DNA of 64,000 bases from Sedimentisphaerales bacterium (GTDB taxonomy: Bacteria; Planctomycetota; Phycisphaerae; Sedimentisphaerales; Anaerohalosphaeraceae). The stretch covers positions 1 to 64,000 of the forward strand of contig JANQGW010000183.1 of NCBI GenBank assembly GCA_028282905.1, read 5' to 3'. This document shows positions 4,412-52,621 of this stretch, piece after piece. The translations under genes were made by a program, and so were the position numbers. Numbering within the stretch: the stretch's first letter is position 1; each line of letters starts with the position of its first letter. The notes under the pieces are model-generated. The model was not told where the DNA came from, did not search any database, and worked only from the letters and a program-made list of their open reading frames with translations.

Positions 4412-4521
4412 CTTGAGTCCCTGTGTCCTTGAGTTCTTGTATTCTAAAAACCCTGCATTCCTGTATACCTGTATTCTTATATCCTTCTGTCCCTTCCGTC
4501 CGTGAAAGTCCGTGTTCGTCA
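4412..4521. repeat. 8-bp quasi-periodic low-complexity intergenic tract
   Basis: cttgagtccctgtgtccttgagttcttg...attcctgt|atacctgt|attcttat|atccttct; shares head with the tract at 2761. Confidence 0.7.
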
Positions 4522-4556
4522 ACTTGTCCCAAAACATCCGCGACCCACGATTTCCA

Positions 4557-4585
4557 TTGAATTTAAAGGCGTTTTCTGGTATAAT
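4557..4585 (+). promoter_or_regulatory. Sigma70-type promoter for the DUF3616/dockerin gene
   Basis: TTGAAT-N17-TATAAT. Confidence 0.6.
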
Positions 4586-4646
4586 AACGCGGTCTATATA
4601 TAGAGATAGCCAAAGACTCCTTTATCGGACTTTTGGGGGATTGCGA

Positions 4647-6779
4647 TTGATTCGTAAAATTGCTGTTATGGTAATTCTGCTGGCACTGGCCGGACTGCTT
4701 CAAGCCCGGCCGCTCAGCATTATCATCGTCACCAGTGACGCCGGTTCGGAATCCGACTACAGCGATTTTCTGCGCGAAATCTATCTCGACAACGCCGATG
4801 TCGAAATCGACGCCAACCGCTACGACGAACCGCTCAGCAACACCAAAAAACAGCAGCTCGCCGCCGCGAACCTCATCATCGTCTCCAGCGACAACGCCGG
4901 CTCCGACTACAACGGCGACTCTGCCTTCTGGTCCACATTGCCGGTACCGATTCTCTGCCACAACACCGCCCTGGCCCGCAGCAACAACGGCGAAAACTGG
5001 GACTGGTTCGACAGTGGACGAACAACCGAAGCCGTCTCCGAACTCTACCCCGCCGACGCCAATGACGCCCTGTTCGACGGAGTCGATTTAACCGGCGGCA
5101 GCCTGACACTATTCGACAACGCAAAAGATTACGAACTGCCGGACACCCCTTACACCGGCGACGGCGCACTTCTCGCCACCGATGTGACCAACCTGCCGAT
5201 GATAGTCTATTTCGACGGCACCGAACCCAACTATTACCCCGGCTCGGCATACGACCCCAACGGCGCCCCCCGAATGTTCTTTGCCATGCCCGGCAAACCC
5301 TCAACCTTCTTCGATCATGCAGCCGGACCGGCCCGACAATTCCTTCGCAACGCCGTCACCACCCTGCTTCCCGAGTGCTACCAGCCCGGCGACCTTGACT
5401 GCGACCGCGATGTGGACATGGAAGACCTCGCCGCCCTCGCGCAGCAGTGGCTGCTGCAAACAAGTACAGACGACTTCGCCCAAATCGCCGAAAACTGGCT
5501 CGCCGGCGTTGACCTGACTGCACCACAGCCCGATCCGTTCGACTGGACCGACAAACCCGTCATCGGTGACTACGGCATCCTAACCATGAAGGCCAAAAAA
5601 GCCGACGATGACCTCCACGGCGTCCAGTACTCCTTTGATTGTCTCGAAAACCCGCGTCTCATAAGCGAATGGCAATACGACCGAACCTACAGCCCCGCCG
5701 ACCTGCCGCCCGGAACCGATTTGTCCTTCCGCGTCAAAGCCCGCGACACCTCCGGCCGATTCAACGAAACCAACTTTTCAAGCATTGAAACCGTCCGCAC
5801 CGACGGCCTGTTTTACCATGCCGCCGACGCATCGGCCGCTGTCGCACTGGACCCCAACCGATTCATCATGGCCGATGACGAATTTAACATTCTGCAGGTC
5901 TATGACTGGAACGCCCCCGCTTCGGATCCCATTATGCAGACCGATATCTCCGCCGCCATCAGCATCGACCCCGCCCACCCGGAAGCCGACATCGAAGGTG
6001 CCACCTGGTTTGGCAACCGCATTTTCTGGATTGCCTCGCACGGTCGTAGCCGCCATGGCGATTACTGGCCGAGCCGCTACCGATTCTTCGCCACCACCGT
6101 CGCAACCGACGGCAGTGTCACAGTCGATGGCGTATATTTCGATTTGATCGATGATTTGATTCAATACGACCGATTCTGGCTGGCCAACGGTCTCGATCTG
6201 GGCCTTGAAGCCGCCATCGGCACCCTCGGCGACCACATCGACCCCGCAACAATCCCCGATCTGGCCCCGAAAGTCAACGGCCTCAACATCGAAGGCCTCT
6301 GCACCACCGCAGACGGCACCAAAATGTTCATTGCCTTTCGCAATCCGCGTCCCCATATCGACGGCGAAGATATGTCGCTGGTGATTCCGCTGGCAAACCC
6401 CGAAGACGTCGTCCTAAATGGCATGCCCGCCGTTTTGGAAGCTCCCATCCTGATTGACCTCGACGACCTCGGCATCCGCAGCATCGAATATTCGCCGACC
6501 ATTGGCGAATACCTCATTGTCGCCGGCTCACATCGCGGCGGCGAACAAGAACCCATCCAGTACCTCTACAACTACAGCATCGAAAAACAGGACCGCGACA
6601 AACTGGCAACGTTCTCCGACATCACCCCGGAAGCACTCTTCCAGTTCCCCGGCCAAAACGCAATTAACCTGCTCAGCGACGACGGCACACGCATCATCGA
6701 CACCCCCACCGGGCCGCAAATCAACAAACTGCTGCCAATACATCTGCGAACCTATCGAACCCGAACCATCCAGCCTTAA
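4647..6779 (+). CDS. Exported protein with dockerin-like repeat and C-terminal DUF3616 domain
   Basis: Signal peptide (TTG start 4647 or ATG 4668); dockerin-like PGDLDCDRDVDMEDLAALAQQWL; DUF3616-like ADASAAVALDPNRFIMADDEFNILQVYD...GLNIEGLCTTADGTKMFIAFRNPRP. Confidence 0.7.
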   Translation: MIRKIAVMVILLALAGLLQARPLSIIIVTSDAGSESDYSDFLREIYLDNADVEIDANRYDEPLSNTKKQQLAAANLIIVSSDNAGSDYNGDSAFWSTLPVPILCHNTALARSNNGENWDWFDSGRTTEAVSELYPADANDALFDGVDLTGGSLTLFDNAKDYELPDTPYTGDGALLATDVTNLPMIVYFDGTEPNYYPGSAYDPNGAPRMFFAMPGKPSTFFDHAAGPARQFLRNAVTTLLPECYQPGDLDCDRDVDMEDLAALAQQWLLQTSTDDFAQIAENWLAGVDLTAPQPDPFDWTDKPVIGDYGILTMKAKKADDDLHGVQYSFDCLENPRLISEWQYDRTYSPADLPPGTDLSFRVKARDTSGRFNETNFSSIETVRTDGLFYHAADASAAVALDPNRFIMADDEFNILQVYDWNAPASDPIMQTDISAAISIDPAHPEADIEGATWFGNRIFWIASHGRSRHGDYWPSRYRFFATTVATDGSVTVDGVYFDLIDDLIQYDRFWLANGLDLGLEAAIGTLGDHIDPATIPDLAPKVNGLNIEGLCTTADGTKMFIAFRNPRPHIDGEDMSLVIPLANPEDVVLNGMPAVLEAPILIDLDDLGIRSIEYSPTIGEYLIVAGSHRGGEQEPIQYLYNYSIEKQDRDKLATFSDITPEALFQFPGQNAINLLSDDGTRIIDTPTGPQINKLLPIHLRTYRTRTIQP

Positions 6780-6793
6780 GATCAAAAGCAGCG

Positions 6794-7954
6794 ATGAAAA
6801 CGACCCACAAAACAGTTCCGCTACATATTGAAAAAGCACCCGCGATTTGTCATGCCGGGCTTGACCCGGCATCCAGTGCAAAACCACTGGGTATCCATCG
6901 CAATCGAAATAACACAATCGTAACAGTCGTATCAAAATATCTTAAAAAGCCTTTTTTAATACTGATAGCCGCGATTTCCGTCACTGCTTCTGCAGATGTG
7001 ACCTTTCGCGGCAGCGCCGATGCCTCCGCCGCTGCCGCCCTCGACAATACCCGTTTCATCATAGCTGATGACGAAGACAACACCCTACGCATCTACGACT
7101 CGAACCGCCCTGACACCGAACCGGTTCAAGAGATTGACCTTTCACCAAAGCTATCCGTCGATGAGGACTACCCCGAAACCGATATCGAAGGCGCGGCCCA
7201 ACTCAATAAACGGATCTTCTGGATTACCTCACACGGCCGCAACAAAAAAGGCAAGTACCGCCAAAGCCGATACCGCTTTTTTGCAACCTCATTCACCAAC
7301 GGCAAGCTGTCCGTTGACGGCGTGTATTCCAACCTCGCCAATGACCTGATCGCCTACGATAAAACATATAAACTCGGCCTCGAAAAAGCCATCGGCACCA
7401 AAAACAACCGAGTCAGCCCGGCAAAAATCCCCGATTGCGCCCCCAAAATCGCCGGCTTAAATATCGAAGGCCTATCCACCGCTGCCGACGGCAAAACCCT
7501 GCTCATCGGCTTTCGAAACCCCCGCCCTCGCGTCAATAATAAGGAAATGGCCCTGATTATCCCGCTGACAAATCCCGAAGACGTGCTGCTCAAAAACGCC
7601 AAACCCATTTTGCAAAGTCCCATCCTACTGGACCTGAACGGCCTCGGCATCCGCGGCATGGAATACTCCAGTAAACTGCAAAAACACCTCATCATCGCCG
7701 GCTCCCACAAAGGCTCCAGCTCCGCACCAGCCTCCGCCCTGTACACCTGTGACCTGAAAACTCGCCAAACCCTGAAAATCACTGAATTTACAGATTTCAA
7801 CCCCGAAGCCATTTTCCAATTCCCAAATCAGGAAAATATCATCCTCCTCAGCGACGACGGCACCAAGCTCATCGACACTAACAACGGCGCCATCGAAAAC
7901 AAACAACTCCCCCGCAATCAGCGTACCTTCCGCACCAAAATCATCACCCCGTAA
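6794..7954 (+). CDS. DUF3616-type exported protein, paralogue of the upstream gene's C-terminus
   Basis: GSADASAAAALDNTRFIIADDEDNTLRIYD..., collinear with 4647..6779 C-terminal half; true N-terminus uncertain because a palindromic repeat is read in frame. Confidence 0.72.
   Translation: MKTTHKTVPLHIEKAPAICHAGLDPASSAKPLGIHRNRNNTIVTVVSKYLKKPFLILIAAISVTASADVTFRGSADASAAAALDNTRFIIADDEDNTLRIYDSNRPDTEPVQEIDLSPKLSVDEDYPETDIEGAAQLNKRIFWITSHGRNKKGKYRQSRYRFFATSFTNGKLSVDGVYSNLANDLIAYDKTYKLGLEKAIGTKNNRVSPAKIPDCAPKIAGLNIEGLSTAADGKTLLIGFRNPRPRVNNKEMALIIPLTNPEDVLLKNAKPILQSPILLDLNGLGIRGMEYSSKLQKHLIIAGSHKGSSSAPASALYTCDLKTRQTLKITEFTDFNPEAIFQFPNQENIILLSDDGTKLIDTNNGAIENKQLPRNQRTFRTKIITP
6848..6879. repeat. Palindromic repeat ATGCCGGG-CTTGA-CCCGGCAT
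   Basis: Perfect 8-bp arms (6852..6872); same structure at 18175 and 19057. Confidence 0.8.
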
Positions 7955-8259: not shown

Positions 8260-11200
8260 GTGAGTGCTCAAGCAACGGCAACGGAACGAAATGAATCGCA
8301 GGCGGATGTGGCGACAATCCAGCAAAAGCTGAAAAAATACAAAAAAAAGCTGATTTCGCTGACCAAACAGAAGGACAATCTCGCGGGCACCTGTAGTGAT
8401 CAGGCCGATTACATTGTGGATTTACAGGGGCAGTTAGACCAGCACCGCACGCAGTACAACGATTTGCAGGAACAACTGGATTCGCATCGGGCCCAAAATG
8501 TAGATTTGCAGGGACAGTTGGAGGCACATTGCACTCAAAACACTCATTTCCAGGCTGAAATCAACGATTTACAGACACAGGTCGCACTCAATGCCGGACT
8601 GGCCGAGACACAGCAGCGGCTGGATGAAGAACTTCAGCAGGCCCACGGAAAGATTGCCGAACTGGAAGAAGCCCTGAATGGCCAACAGGCCGACGCTGGA
8701 AAAATCAGCGATTTAGAGCAGAAAATCGCGGATTTAGACAAAAATCTGAGCAAAATCACCCGGCAGAAAGATAACCTAGCGGGCACATGCAGCGACCAGT
8801 ATGACACAATCGCGGAATTATCCTCCAAACTCAAAGAGGCCAATGCACGACACAGCGAGGCGCAGGCGGAAATCCAGCGGCTGATCGCCGAGCAGACGGA
8901 CGGGAAAATCGCTGATTTAGAGGCGATTTTGGCGGATGAAAAGGCTGATTTTGCCCTTCAAAAGGCGAATTTTCAGGCTCAAATTGATGAAAAAACGCGT
9001 GAAATCGCGGATTTTGAGTCTCAAATGGCTGAGAAAACCGCTCAACTTGAGGCGAAAACTGCCCAATATGAGGAGAAAACGGCCCAACTTGAGGTGGAAA
9101 TGGGTCATCTTAAAGAGACTGAACAAGTCCGGAAAACACTCCGAGACGAACTCTGTCAAAATGAGCAGGAGATCGAACAACTCCGCCATTCGATGGCCGC
9201 GACGGAAGGTTTGCTGAATCAACAGAACGAGATCTCAGAAGAAAAAGAGCGGGAAACAAAACAGCTGCGTCACGAATTGGAAGAACTGGAAAAGGGTTAT
9301 CAGCTCATCCAGCAGGAAAAGCAGGCGTTAGCGAATCGGCTGCAGCAGTCCGGTGACCAGAATCGTTCTGTTGAGGAACAGAAAAACGCTTTGAAAGCAC
9401 AAATCGCTGAGCTGAAAGGCCAGCTGGAGCAGGCGGTAGATAAATATCACGCTTCTGAGAACGAAACGCATGTATTCAAGTCGCAGATTGCCGAACTGAA
9501 TGAACAGATTGGTCATCATGAGCACAAATATACACAGCTTCAACAGTCATTAGCTGAAACCGAAGCACTGTTGACGCAACAAACACACAGCAGCGGTCAG
9601 ACGGAAAACGCCCTGGCGGATTTGCGGCATGAACTGACGGAACTGCAGTCAGCACATCAGGCGGCACAGGACGAGAAGGAGACACTTCTCAAAAAGATGC
9701 AGGCCGCAGATGCACGGCAGCAGGAACTGGAAGCTGAGAAACAGTCGTTGCAGACGAGCAATGATGAACTGGCGGCTCAGCAGGATTTCAATATCAGCGA
9801 GATCCAGAGTCTGCAAACGACGGTGGCGGAACTGAATAAACAGATTGGCGGCCGAGATGAACTGCAGGAAACGCTGCAGCAATCACTCAGCGAGGCCGAA
9901 GCCCGATTGACTGAACAAACGCAGGCAACCGAGCAGGCGGAAAACGCCCTGTCCAATCTGCAGCACAATTTGAGTGAACTGCAATCGGCCCATCAGGCTA
10001 CGCTGGAAGAAAAAGAGATGCTGGGACAGAAAATAACAGAGGCCCAATCGCAGCATCAACAACTGGACACTGACAAGCAATCGCTGCAATCGACCATTGC
10101 TGATCTGAATGAACAGATCGAGCACCATGAGCACAAATATACACAACTCCAGCAGTCATTGGCTGAAACTGAATCGCTTCTGGAACAGCAGACACATACT
10201 TCGGGGCAAACCGAGAACGCAATGGCCGACTTGCGGCATGAGCTGACTGAACTGCAAACCGCTCATCAGGACACGCTGGAAGAAAAAGATTCCCTGACCA
10301 AAAAGCTGGAGACGATTGAAGCACAGCAACAGCAACTGGAGACCGAGAAGGAATCGCTGCAGAGAAGCTATGACGAGTTGGCAAATCAGCAGGAATACAA
10401 TATCGCTGAGATCCAGAGTCTGCAAGCAACGGCAGCAACGCTGAATGCGCAGATTGCCGGCCGGGATGAACAGAATGAGCAACTGCAGCAGTCGCTTAAA
10501 GCAAGCCAAGCACAGCTTGCCGAACAGAAACGGGCTGCCGAAGACGCTGAACAGGCTTTGAACAATCTGCAGCACAGTCTGAGTGAACTCCAGTCAGCGC
10601 ATGAGCAAACGATCGGTGAAAAAGACACTCTGCAAAGCAGTAATGACGAACTGGCCGCTCAGCAGGAATTTAATATCAATGAAATTCAGAGCCTGCAGAC
10701 AACGATTGCAGAACTTCGGCAGTCGATGGATACAACCGAAGCAGCGCTCACTGAGCAGACGGACAAAGCCGGCCGCTCCAAAGAGGCGCTGACGGCTTTA
10801 CAGCAGGAATTTGAACGGCTGCAAACGGCTCACCGGCAGGTTTCGGAAGAAAATCAATCACTTGAATCGAGCATTGCACAATGGCAGGCCGATTGCTCAA
10901 CCGCGCATTCACAGCGGGATGATGTGCAAACGAAACTAACCGAGGCGCAGTCACAACTGGAAACGCAGTCCGCGCATCTGGAAACCATCAGCCATCAACT
11001 GCACGAAAATGTGCAGTCACAGCAGGCCCAGCAGGAAACATTCGATCAGCATATCTCCGAGATTGAACAACTGCGTCAGCAAAAAGACAACCTGCTTACT
11101 CAATTGGAAACCGCGACAGAAACCGCTGAAAAAGCCGAGCAGGAAAACAGCCGGCTTCATAATGAACTGCTGGCGTTCAGTGAAAAGGCTACCGCGGAAA

Positions 11201-13638
11201 ATCACGGTCTGCAAACTCAGCTTGAAGAAACGCAGGCGGACTATCAGACACTGGAAAAACAACATCACACACTGCAGGAAACCTTTGGCGACCTGCAAAG
11301 TGAGCTGCAGCAGAAGGCCGCGGAGACTCAAACACTTGAGAGTCGTCTGAATGACATTCAAAGCCAATTGGTTGAAACGCAAACCCAAGCCTCACAGATC
11401 GAGGAGGAGCGAACCGATCTGCAGAGTAAACTTTCCGTGCTGAAAACCGAGCACGGTGACATCCTCGAAGCCAACGGCAGCCTGCAAACACAGCTTGACC
11501 AGACGGAAAACATGTACCAGGCGACGCAGCAGCAGTGCCGCGACCTGGAAGAGACCCTTGCAACACTGGAGGGGAAGCTTGAGGAAAAGCAGCAGCAGCA
11601 CCAGCAGCTTCAGCAAACACTCAATGACACCGAAGCACTCCTGCAGCAGCAGCGGGATATCGCTTACAGTGCCGAGGAAACATTAGCTGATCGAACGGAT
11701 CAGTTGAATGCCCTGCAGGAACTGCATGAGCAGATCGCCGGCGAAAAGCAAACACTGCAAGCCGAACTTGAAACGCAGCAGGCCCAGTACGACACACTGA
11801 CCCGGCAAAAGGAAAATCTGCAGGAGACGCTAACCTCGCTGCAAACGGAACTGGACCAGCAGCGAGCTGACCATCAACAACTCCAGCAGACGCTAACCGA
11901 CACTGAAAAGGCCCTGTCAGAGCAAAAGGCATTGACGGAAACGGCTCAAGACAACCTGAACGACCGGACGGCACAACTGCAGGCGGCCCAAACGCTGCAG
12001 GAACAGACGGTTTCGGAAAAAGAGGCACTGGCAGCTGACCTTGAACATTGGCAACATCAATATAACACGCTAACCGAACAGAAAGATGCGCTTGAAGCCA
12101 AGCACGATGAGCTGCTGGCCGAAAAGGAAAGCCTGCAAACACAGCGGCAACATCTGACCGAACAAAAACAGGCTCTGGAAAGCGATATTCAGAATTGGCA
12201 AGACAAGCACGACGATTTGTCAAGCCAGCGGGAAATGTTACAGGCATCATTAGCCACGGTGCAGGATGAACTGCAGCAGCGTAACAATGATTACCAGAAA
12301 CTTTCGGAAACATTGAGTGAAACCGAAAATGCCCTTTCGCAGCAAAAAGAGCGAACGGCAGCCACGGAAGGTGAACTGGCCGAACGCAGTGAACAATTAG
12401 CCGTGGCTCGGAGACTGCATGAGCAGACGGCTGCGGAAAAAGAGACGCTGGAAGCCGATATCGAACAACGCAAGAGCGAGTACGCAACGCTTTTGCATCA
12501 GCGTGACGGCTTGCAGGCCCAGTACGATGAACTGACCAGCGAAAAGGATACTCTGGAATCGCAACGCAATCAGCTTGCCGAAGACAAGCAAACACTGCAA
12601 GATGATATTGAAACCTGGCAGAACAAACACGACAGCCTCGTAAAACAGCGTGAGAATCTGCAGGAAACGCTGGCATCACTGCGGACAGATCTTGAACGTC
12701 AGCATAATGAACATCAGCAGGTTACCCAGACACTGGCGGCGACGGAAGAAGCGCTTGCCGAGCAGAAAATATTGACAGAAGCCGCTGAGGAAACACTCGC
12801 GGACCGGACCGACCAACTGCATGCTTTGCAGTCACTGCGTCAGGAAATACTCGCCGAAAAGGATGGTCTGCAACGTCAGCTTAATGAAACACAGGACCGC
12901 GTTGAACAGAGGACGCAGCAGTGTGACAAACTGCAGGGACAATTGACTTCGGCACAGGGCGAACTGGACAACATGACTAGTGAACGAGATCAGCTTCGCC
13001 GGTCACTGGATGAAACCGAGGCGACGCTGGCCCGCCAGCAGCAGGCAACGACGACAGCGGAAGCGGAACTGGCCGAACGCAGCCAGCAATTAGACAGCCT
13101 GCAGATGCAGCATCGCGAAACAACGCATGAAAAAGACACGCTCCGTCAGCAGGTCGGCGGCCTGCAAACAGATATCGACGAACTGCGGCAATCGCTGGAA
13201 ACCAAGACGCGTCAATTAGACAAAGCGACAACGGCGCTGCAGGAAAATCAGGAAAAACAACTGGCCCTGACGGAAACGCTCAGCACGAAAAATACGCTGC
13301 TGGAACAGCTTCAGCAGCAGAAGGAAACGTATCGCCAGCAGTTTGAATCGGCGGCTCAGACGACTGAGCAGGCCGAAAGCGTTGTCAAGCAGCTCCAGAA
13401 GAAAATCAAGATACAGGCCCAGCAGTTTGACCAGAAGCTGCAAACGACGCAGCAGGAGGTTGAGTCGCTGCAATCACAGCTTCAGGAAACAACCGACTGC
13501 GTCGATGAATTTGTGGCGCTGGTTCAGGAAGTTAATGACGAAAACGAGCAATTGCGGAAAATCTGGAGACAGCCGCCGGTCAGGTTAAGCGTATTCAGTC
13601 AGCGCTGGCCGATGAAAAGCAGGCCAACGCGGCGATGA
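8260..13638 (+). CDS. Giant coiled-coil protein, N-terminal 1792 aa (probably one gene with 13635..14327)
   Basis: GTG start with AGGAG; almost continuous heptad-like Q/E/L-rich sequence; reading frame loses coiled-coil character after ...NEQLRKI. Confidence 0.85.
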   Translation: MSAQATATERNESQADVATIQQKLKKYKKKLISLTKQKDNLAGTCSDQADYIVDLQGQLDQHRTQYNDLQEQLDSHRAQNVDLQGQLEAHCTQNTHFQAEINDLQTQVALNAGLAETQQRLDEELQQAHGKIAELEEALNGQQADAGKISDLEQKIADLDKNLSKITRQKDNLAGTCSDQYDTIAELSSKLKEANARHSEAQAEIQRLIAEQTDGKIADLEAILADEKADFALQKANFQAQIDEKTREIADFESQMAEKTAQLEAKTAQYEEKTAQLEVEMGHLKETEQVRKTLRDELCQNEQEIEQLRHSMAATEGLLNQQNEISEEKERETKQLRHELEELEKGYQLIQQEKQALANRLQQSGDQNRSVEEQKNALKAQIAELKGQLEQAVDKYHASENETHVFKSQIAELNEQIGHHEHKYTQLQQSLAETEALLTQQTHSSGQTENALADLRHELTELQSAHQAAQDEKETLLKKMQAADARQQELEAEKQSLQTSNDELAAQQDFNISEIQSLQTTVAELNKQIGGRDELQETLQQSLSEAEARLTEQTQATEQAENALSNLQHNLSELQSAHQATLEEKEMLGQKITEAQSQHQQLDTDKQSLQSTIADLNEQIEHHEHKYTQLQQSLAETESLLEQQTHTSGQTENAMADLRHELTELQTAHQDTLEEKDSLTKKLETIEAQQQQLETEKESLQRSYDELANQQEYNIAEIQSLQATAATLNAQIAGRDEQNEQLQQSLKASQAQLAEQKRAAEDAEQALNNLQHSLSELQSAHEQTIGEKDTLQSSNDELAAQQEFNINEIQSLQTTIAELRQSMDTTEAALTEQTDKAGRSKEALTALQQEFERLQTAHRQVSEENQSLESSIAQWQADCSTAHSQRDDVQTKLTEAQSQLETQSAHLETISHQLHENVQSQQAQQETFDQHISEIEQLRQQKDNLLTQLETATETAEKAEQENSRLHNELLAFSEKATAENHGLQTQLEETQADYQTLEKQHHTLQETFGDLQSELQQKAAETQTLESRLNDIQSQLVETQTQASQIEEERTDLQSKLSVLKTEHGDILEANGSLQTQLDQTENMYQATQQQCRDLEETLATLEGKLEEKQQQHQQLQQTLNDTEALLQQQRDIAYSAEETLADRTDQLNALQELHEQIAGEKQTLQAELETQQAQYDTLTRQKENLQETLTSLQTELDQQRADHQQLQQTLTDTEKALSEQKALTETAQDNLNDRTAQLQAAQTLQEQTVSEKEALAADLEHWQHQYNTLTEQKDALEAKHDELLAEKESLQTQRQHLTEQKQALESDIQNWQDKHDDLSSQREMLQASLATVQDELQQRNNDYQKLSETLSETENALSQQKERTAATEGELAERSEQLAVARRLHEQTAAEKETLEADIEQRKSEYATLLHQRDGLQAQYDELTSEKDTLESQRNQLAEDKQTLQDDIETWQNKHDSLVKQRENLQETLASLRTDLERQHNEHQQVTQTLAATEEALAEQKILTEAAEETLADRTDQLHALQSLRQEILAEKDGLQRQLNETQDRVEQRTQQCDKLQGQLTSAQGELDNMTSERDQLRRSLDETEATLARQQQATTTAEAELAERSQQLDSLQMQHRETTHEKDTLRQQVGGLQTDIDELRQSLETKTRQLDKATTALQENQEKQLALTETLSTKNTLLEQLQQQKETYRQQFESAAQTTEQAESVVKQLQKKIKIQAQQFDQKLQTTQQEVESLQSQLQETTDCVDEFVALVQEVNDENEQLRKIWRQPPVRLSVFSQRWPMKSRPTRR

Positions 13639-14327
13639 AAGAGGAGATTTCCGTGCTGCAGCAGCCGGCGGGCGTGCTGACACAGACGCAGGATGAACTG
13701 GAAGCGGCCCAGCAGCGGATTCGTTCGCTGGAACAGAATATGGCGCAGGAATCAGCGGTGCTGAAAGTCACGCAGCAGGAAATGCAGAAGTATCATAAGA
13801 TGACCAGCGAAATGCAGGCGAAGAACTGTGAGATGACTTCGACACTGCGACAGGCTGAGGACGAGCGGCAGCAGGCGGTCGATAAGCTGGCCAAGGTTGA
13901 AAAGAGCATGGCCACATTGCAGACTGAACGCGACAGCTATAATAAGAACCTGACGACACTGAAACAGCAGGCTGCCAAGGCGGTGGACCGCGTCGAAACA
14001 TTGACGGCGAAACTGCACGACCAGAGCGAAGAATTGAAAATCGCCCAGGAAACGATCAAGACCCTGCGAGCACAGCAGAAAAATGCCCGCACCGGCATCA
14101 CAGCGGCGATGAACGAAGATACCGCTGCGGCCAGCGGGGTCGGTCACGCACAAAGCACAATCCAGCAGTTGAAGGAAGAACTGCAGCTTCGCAAACAGCA
14201 GGTACAGCGGTCACGCAAGCAGCTGTCCAAGGCGGATGCGGAACTGGATTTGATCGGGCCGGATTCGGATCGGGATCAGAAGCGTAAGAATCTTCAGCAG
14301 AAACTGGAGTTGTTTGGGGAGAAGTAA
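13635..14327 (+). CDS. Coiled-coil protein, C-terminal continuation of the giant coiled-coil ORF in the -1 frame
   Basis: Frame is open and coiled-coil-like from about 13563 (LETAAGQVKRIQSALADEKQANAAMKEEIS...); ATGA overlap with upstream stop. Confidence 0.75.
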   Translation: MKEEISVLQQPAGVLTQTQDELEAAQQRIRSLEQNMAQESAVLKVTQQEMQKYHKMTSEMQAKNCEMTSTLRQAEDERQQAVDKLAKVEKSMATLQTERDSYNKNLTTLKQQAAKAVDRVETLTAKLHDQSEELKIAQETIKTLRAQQKNARTGITAAMNEDTAAASGVGHAQSTIQQLKEELQLRKQQVQRSRKQLSKADAELDLIGPDSDRDQKRKNLQQKLELFGEK

Positions 14328-14340
14328 TCCCGGTGGCCGG

Positions 14341-14400
14341 AGATTAACCACGAAGTTCACGAAGAACACGAAGTTTTTGGATTAGACCACTGAGGATGCT
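14341..14400. repeat. 60-bp direct repeat, copy 1
   Basis: 58/60 identical to 15171..15230; contains cacgaag units. Confidence 0.85.
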
Positions 14401-14629
14401 GGTTTTTTAGAACCACGGATAGACGCTAATAGACACGAATTTATTTTGCCACAGATTTACACAGATTTGGGGCACAGGGAAGGAAATCGCCGCGGGCATT
14501 TTGCCCGCTTGACTGGTCAGTGCCGGCTAAAATGCTCGACGCAAGCGTCTGTGCTTTCATCCAATTCTGCCCAGTTCGGCTGCACCGAAGCGTTTTCTAT
14601 GAAACATCTATTTAGGCGGGAGATTTTGA

Positions 14630-15157
14630 ATGCGAAATTTTTCACGAAAATTTACTGTACTGTTATTTGTTTTTGCCATCGGCTTTCTGTTTGTTTATAA
14701 GACGGGTGCTTCATCGACTAAAGACTGTGAACGTAATCATAAATATTCTCTGCCGCTGACGGTTGAGGCGTTGATTCCTCGGCATGCTGATATCGTTTGG
14801 TATTCAGATGCTAATTATTCTTCTGAGGGCGATGAAATTCTTGCGGTTTTCTATCGTACGCCGGTTATTGGGGGCAACGATTCTTTACAATATCTGGAAT
14901 TTTTCAGATTACGTGCTCACGGCTCTTTTGCGACACCACGGGATAGAATTTATTTGGGCGGACGGGGGCTATATGCAGTTGACAAGGTTGTTGAGAATAA
15001 TAAGGTCATTACGGTCCATGCCAGAGAGCATCAGGGCAACGATTGCATTGCCAATCCCACGCGGCGTGTCGATATCATCGTTCAGTATGGACCGGGGGCA
15101 ATCACCGTCTCTAAGAAATATCCGCAACAGAAACCGGAATCGGTTGGTGACAAGTAA
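14630..15157 (+). CDS. Hypothetical exported protein
   Basis: MRNFSRKFTVLLFVFAIGFLFVYKTGAS signal peptide/anchor; no recognised domain. Confidence 0.6.
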   Translation: MRNFSRKFTVLLFVFAIGFLFVYKTGASSTKDCERNHKYSLPLTVEALIPRHADIVWYSDANYSSEGDEILAVFYRTPVIGGNDSLQYLEFFRLRAHGSFATPRDRIYLGGRGLYAVDKVVENNKVITVHAREHQGNDCIANPTRRVDIIVQYGPGAITVSKKYPQQKPESVGDK

Positions 15158-15170
15158 GTTGGCGGGATGG

Positions 15171-15230
15171 AGATTCACCACGAAGTTCACGAAGAACACG
15201 AAGTTTTTGGATCAGACCACTGAGGATGCT
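15171..15230. repeat. 60-bp direct repeat, copy 2
   Basis: 58/60 identical to 14341..14400. Confidence 0.85.
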
Positions 15231-15442
15231 GAGGACGCCGATTTGGGGCGGGTTTTACGCGGACACTCACGGACCTAACACGGACGGACACAGAGGGATT
15301 CGAAATCACTCCGCGCTTTGGGCACCCCTCCTTTATAAGGAGGGGAGTTGCTTTCTATAAAAGCGGGGAGTTTTGGCTGCTTTGGGAGTATTTTTTATTG
15401 TACATCGATAGCGTTTGACCGGTTTTTTTTGGAATTGTCGGC

Positions 15443-15471
15443 TTGACGAATGGGGGCGATTCGGGTACCGT
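15443..15471 (+). promoter_or_regulatory. Possible enolase promoter
   Basis: TTGACG-N17-TACCGT; weak -10. Confidence 0.35.
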
Positions 15472-15482
15472 TTTAGTATTGA

Positions 15483-16841
<1,359 letters not shown>

Positions 16842-16960: not shown

Positions 16961-17476
16961 TTGACTCGGTTCATCATGACAATTCGTTTTCTTTTTTTTC
17001 TGGTCTTTTTTGTGATCGGAGCGTCAGCGATGGTGTTGTCGATTCTGGCTGAGCCGGAGTTGACAACGTATTATTATAATCGGGCGGTGCTGGCGCAGAT
17101 CGAGGCTCAGAACGAGAAGATTCAGGATTTGACCGAGCAGTATGCGGCGCAGGTGAAGCTGATCGAGTCGGACCCGAATATTCTGCAGCGATTCAGTGCG
17201 ACGACGTTTGGGCATAAACCGCTGACAGACGAGACTGCTTTTCCGGAGGCAAGCGGTAATGTTCTGCGTGATGAAACGGAGCAAATTCTCCGCCGCGATG
17301 AGGCTTCCGGCCCGGTTGAGCCCACTCCCGAATGGCTGGCACATATCCTGCAGCCAAAAATCCGGCTGGCGCTGTTTTTGACCGGGTGCGGACTGGTGCT
17401 GATCACGTTTATCTTCTTTGGCAGCGGTTTGCCGAAAGAAGCGAAATCGACGTCGAAAAGCGACCGTCACGGCTGA
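16961..17476 (+). CDS. Hypothetical membrane protein with two TM segments
   Basis: Two hydrophobic segments flanking a charged region; likely start 16976. Confidence 0.55.
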   Translation: MTRFIMTIRFLFFLVFFVIGASAMVLSILAEPELTTYYYNRAVLAQIEAQNEKIQDLTEQYAAQVKLIESDPNILQRFSATTFGHKPLTDETAFPEASGNVLRDETEQILRRDEASGPVEPTPEWLAHILQPKIRLALFLTGCGLVLITFIFFGSGLPKEAKSTSKSDRHG

Positions 17477-51943: not shown

Positions 51944-52621
51944 TTACTGGGGCCACATGATCCGCAAAAACGTCGCGGTTCGCACTTCGACGGTTTCGCC
52001 GTCATCGCCCTGAATCGTTAAATTCATCCGAACGGCGCCGCTACCAACGCCTCCCAGGACGGTATGGCTGAATATTTCATCATTCGAGGTCGTGTCAACC
52101 CCTCTGGCCAGTACCTCCGTTCGCGTCGCCGAAGAAATCCGCAGTCCACCGCTGCTGACACCGCCGGTGTCGCCGGATACCTTTCCGTAATCGGCCTTCA
52201 ATTCCTTGCCGTCCAGATAAAACAGGACATAATGGGTTCCGGTGTTTGAAATATCCATCACGTCGGCCTTGGCGGATGCCGGGTTGAAGGGCGTGGCCCA
52301 GTAGCGGAATTCAACCGCCTGACCGGCGGCAATTGTCTGTCCGTCAGGCGGAACCGCCCGGCTAAACGTTCCATTAGCTACTTTATACACTTTATAGTTT
52401 GCGCGGTTAGACCGGCGTCCCAAGGCGGAAAACGCCGCTGAGACTGCCATGGAATCCTGACGATGCACACTGTTGACATTTTCGTAGGTTTGCTGCCAGC
52501 CTCGATTGCCGCCGGCCAACAGAATGCCGACCGCCAGAAACGGGATGACCAACAGAATCATCACCACTACCAGTTCCATCTGGGTAAAGCCTGAACATCT
52601 TATTTTCTGAATATATTTCAC
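51944..52621 (-). CDS. PilW/GspJ-like minor pseudopilin, copy B
   Basis: CSGFTQMELVVVMILLVIPFLAVGILLAGGNRGWQQTYENVNSVHRQDSMAVSAAFSALGRRSNRANYKVY; paralogous to 55155..55826. Confidence 0.82.
   Translation of the reverse strand: MKYIQKIRCSGFTQMELVVVMILLVIPFLAVGILLAGGNRGWQQTYENVNSVHRQDSMAVSAAFSALGRRSNRANYKVYKVANGTFSRAVPPDGQTIAAGQAVEFRYWATPFNPASAKADVMDISNTGTHYVLFYLDGKELKADYGKVSGDTGGVSSGGLRISSATRTEVLARGVDTTSNDEIFSHTVLGGVGSGAVRMNLTIQGDDGETVEVRTATFLRIMWPQ

Follow-up and report, generated by a model that had tools for sequence, protein, structure and literature searches.

A giant coiled-coil gene beside enolase in a Sedimentisphaerales bacterium, apparently one base short and divided between two reading frames

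The coiled-coil locus and its surroundings

The DNA considered here, hereafter the window, is a stretch of 64,000 nucleotides (positions 1 to 64,000, forward strand, of contig JANQGW010000183.1, assembly GCA_028282905.1) from a Sedimentisphaerales bacterium of the Anaerohalosphaeraceae. It carries, ahead of a gene for enolase, two overlapping ORFs (Table 1) whose coordinates and ATGA overlap had been given correctly in a first-pass annotation made from the sequence alone. That annotation read the pair as a single gene, coding for a coiled coil over about 2,020 codons and interrupted by an apparent -1 frameshift, and left assembly error, mutation, programmed slippage and translational coupling as candidate explanations.

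Table 1. Coordinates of the features at the coiled-coil locus (window positions) and of the two syntenic orthologues
Feature	Position	Strand	Length	Remarks
5' part of coiled-coil gene	8260..13638	+	1792 codons	GTG start; leaves the coding frame at about 13560, with about 25 out-of-frame codons before TGA
3' part of the same coiled-coil gene	13635..14327	+	230 codons	conserved C-terminal region; Met13635 not conserved
N-terminal motif QKxxLxxTCxxQxxYI	8368..8415	+		residues 37-52; in 6/6 aligned family members
Frame-change site	13549..13562	+		exact place of the lost base within TGCGGAAAAT not fixed by the alignment
-1 frame segment LETAAGQVKRIQSALADEKQANAA	13563..13634	+		homologous to the orthologues; missing from both predicted ORFs
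ATGA stop/start overlap	13635..13638	+		probably incidental
Enolase	15552..16841	+		syntenic anchor adjoining the gene in both orthologous loci
Orthologue L012	5373-8726 of JADHXS010000001.1 (Phycisphaerae bacterium BS750m-G59)		1117 aa	single ORF
Orthologue L011	2750-5629 of JAKEGM010000065.1 (PMV_4.61)		959 aa	single ORF

The protein matches ATG16 in Pfam (64.8 bits); its other Pfam matches, among them myosin tail and tropomyosin, fall below the cut-offs and probably reflect composition. The protein has in common with these long uncharacterised coiled-coil proteins a heptad-rich helical sequence; unlike them, its family has a motif of its own, found near the N-terminus of the window protein and of L011-L013, L015 and L017, with a second, similar copy further along in three of these proteins (window, L012 and L011). 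Nothing specific was found in a search of the literature.

The surroundings of the gene have features of their own. About 1.2 kb (14300-15551) separates the coiled-coil gene from enolase, against the 100-150 nt between the orthologue and the downstream enolase in L012 and L011. Within this interval a 102-nt direct repeat occurs twice, on either side of an ORF at 14630-15157; the copies share 84% identity and lie 830 nt from each other. The repeat is dispersed through the genome as a family, with about 31 matches there. Upstream, two adjoining DUF3616-like genes (4512-7954) look like a tandem duplication and are adjacent in another genome of the genus (G002) too. The source assembly itself, at 5.7 Mb, is about twice or more the size of the nine other genomes of the genus (1.3-3.0 Mb).

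Reading frame across the junction

Codon usage follows the first ORF almost to its end and then leaves it. Up to 13560 frame 0 is favoured (+22 nats). Over 13561-13634 the -1 frame leads frame 0 by +7.6 nats to -5.6, and over 13635-14324 by +57 to -79, frame 0 containing 12 stops there. An unsupervised frame HMM, a codon-usage model trained on sampled stretches of the same assembly, puts the switch at 13548/13549. The upstream ORF thus leaves the coding frame about 75 nt ahead of its stop, and its tail is unlike the remainder of its protein, as had been noted from its residues, which do not resemble coiled coil. The -1 frame is open already from 13539, reading ...AENLETAAGQVKRIQSALADEKQANAAMKEEISVLQQ, and the 3' part comprises 262 codons of this frame without a stop.

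Using the conserved C-terminal region, we retrieved two genes of the same genus, L012 and L011, from loci that also share with the window a small gene resembling that at 16961-17476 (a weak DivIC match), and in L011 a homologue of the DUF3616-like genes lies upstream. Both orthologues run in one frame straight across the junction site, which supports the view of one long coiled-coil gene with a -1 break. In the protein alignment the window reads NEQLRK, then in the -1 frame NLETAAGQVKRIQ, opposite NEQLRQNVEQTAQQVARVQ of L011; in the DNA alignment it is one column short at the junction. Homology thus resumes in the other frame immediately past the site. Compared with the two orthologues, the segment from 13563 to 13634 reaches scores of 35 and 40 in the -1 frame, whereas the values for the frame-0 tail are -10 and -20, and when the 24 residues from the site to Met13635 were shuffled, only 1 and 0 of 20,000 shuffles did as well.

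The wider family reads in the same way, since three more distant members (1083-2357 aa) are each a single ORF and the five same-genus matches, the window's own excluded, are open over 963-2364 aa and contain no internal stop. Orthologues divided at the same ATGA junction, the outcome contrary to a single gene, were searched for among the same-genus relatives and were not found. As the C-terminal region compared is just 42-45% identical to that of the two orthologues, neither is a close sister that shows the ancestral state at the level of the base.

The first-pass annotation had assigned the missing base to the AAAA run at 13558..13561. The loss of one base near there stands, and its origin in the A run is not required by the alignment, because the gap falls in TTGCG-GAAAAT with several placements possible and both orthologues have Gln where the proposed reconstruction gives Lys. 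The lost base is therefore not necessarily from the run, and the homopolymer argument is weaker than first stated.

Competing explanations for the break

We put at about 0.9 the probability that this is a single coiled-coil gene one base short near 13549-13562, through a recent deletion or an isolated consensus error, with no recoding signal. The gene, of about 2,020 codons, would correspond to what is a single reading frame in the relatives; absence of one base near 13549-13562 would have cost the frame, and the product as written would end early after about 25 foreign residues, without the roughly 255 residues of the conserved C-terminal region. Strong coding scores persist throughout a 3' part free of stops, which makes the break either recent or spurious; its recency, if it is real, would be read from this clean downstream frame.

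A genuine recent deletion, leaving a truncated protein or a pseudogene in the population, has in our judgement a slightly better than even chance and is somewhat more likely than an assembly error. It agrees with the scarcity of other frameshifts in the assembly and with the absence of the gene beside enolase in four genomes of the same genus, G002 (99% complete), G005, G006 and G007; in G002 the DUF3616-like genes are followed directly by enolase. No match to the C-terminal region was found anywhere in G002 or G007, and G005 and G006 have just a distant homologue of that region, elsewhere in the genome. From this pattern of absence, loss of the gene is probably tolerated. Against a genuine deletion, the rest of the coiled-coil gene shows no visible decay.

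An isolated assembly or consensus error, the organism's own gene being intact, is a serious possibility that we rate at somewhat under even odds. The assembly consists of 243 contigs with an estimated contamination of 3.26%, the gene is whole in every relative possessing it, and full coding constraint is still apparent on either side of the break. On the other hand, the site is a run of merely four A, in a gene that has about 78 runs of at least four identical bases, and no close repeat that could confuse an assembler was found at the junction. Misassembly at an internal repeat was considered and rejected: the internal repeats of the gene are diverged (about 60-81% identity), and the nearest (13335-13372, 13419-13456 and 13712-13749) exclude the junction.

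The assembly was also screened for frame switches in sampled stretches amounting to about 359 kb and 133 long genes. Besides the break described here, these 359 kb yielded no true in-gene frame switch, at a sensitivity of 40-71% as estimated from 150 simulated deletions (60/150 detected by the strict screen, 107/150 by the frame switch alone). This speaks against an assembly full of indels and is still compatible with a single error. All other candidates that passed a geometric filter in the screen, five in number (L022 near 5191, L029 near 16312 and 18574, L038 near 7483 and the window near 51982) proved on translation to be separate neighbouring genes, in unrelated or paralogous pairs.

An evolved arrangement of two genes, in which the ATGA overlap couples the translation of two separate proteins, is very improbable. 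The overlap is present, and the 3' part by itself corresponds to a conserved region. Yet of 150 one-base deletions simulated in genes of the same assembly, 30 produced ATGA where the new stop fell, so that such an overlap is expected by chance about once in five times. Both orthologues have Leu in place of the Met of the second start, this start lacks a clear Shine-Dalgarno sequence ahead of it, 24 homologous residues would be dropped between the two parts, and the split is seen in no relative. Translational coupling, one of the options originally offered, is accordingly disfavoured.

Least credible of all is programmed slippage, whether -1 ribosomal frameshifting or transcriptional slippage, as a way for the broken frame to yield the full-length protein: although the same protein continues in the -1 frame and an A run lies at the site, this run is just four long, the zero-frame codons (TTG CGG AAA ATC) form no X_XXY_YYZ heptamer, as the first-pass annotation had already remarked, the predicted downstream RNA fold is no more stable than expected (z -0.67; 49 of 200 shuffles equally stable), and the orthologues code for the full protein in one frame. 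Programmed -1 ribosomal frameshifting is known from dnaX and from IS3-type elements. The window resembles these in its net -1 change at an A-rich site and in the longer product that would result, and differs from them in lacking a slippery heptamer, a stimulatory structure that exceeds shuffled sequence and a frame change conserved in relatives.

The ATGA overlap would nonetheless permit some coupled translation of the 3' part. That the 3' region is in fact translated, through stop-start coupling or low-level slippage, giving a coiled-coil protein in two parts or a minor read-through form, we consider a slim prospect.

Meaning for annotation and for the genus

What separates the two ORFs is most likely a recent mutation of an ordinary kind, or else an assembly slip, rather than a special translation signal. 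The locus resembles other frameshifted genes (recent pseudogenes or truncations) in its intact single-ORF orthologues, its one-base difference and its two collinear ORFs in different frames; bacterial annotation routinely flags genes of this sort. The two predicted ORFs are best handled as one frameshifted gene, and the finding has little importance beyond annotation. If the deletion is real, it would be further evidence that the genus can dispense with the giant coiled-coil gene beside enolase.
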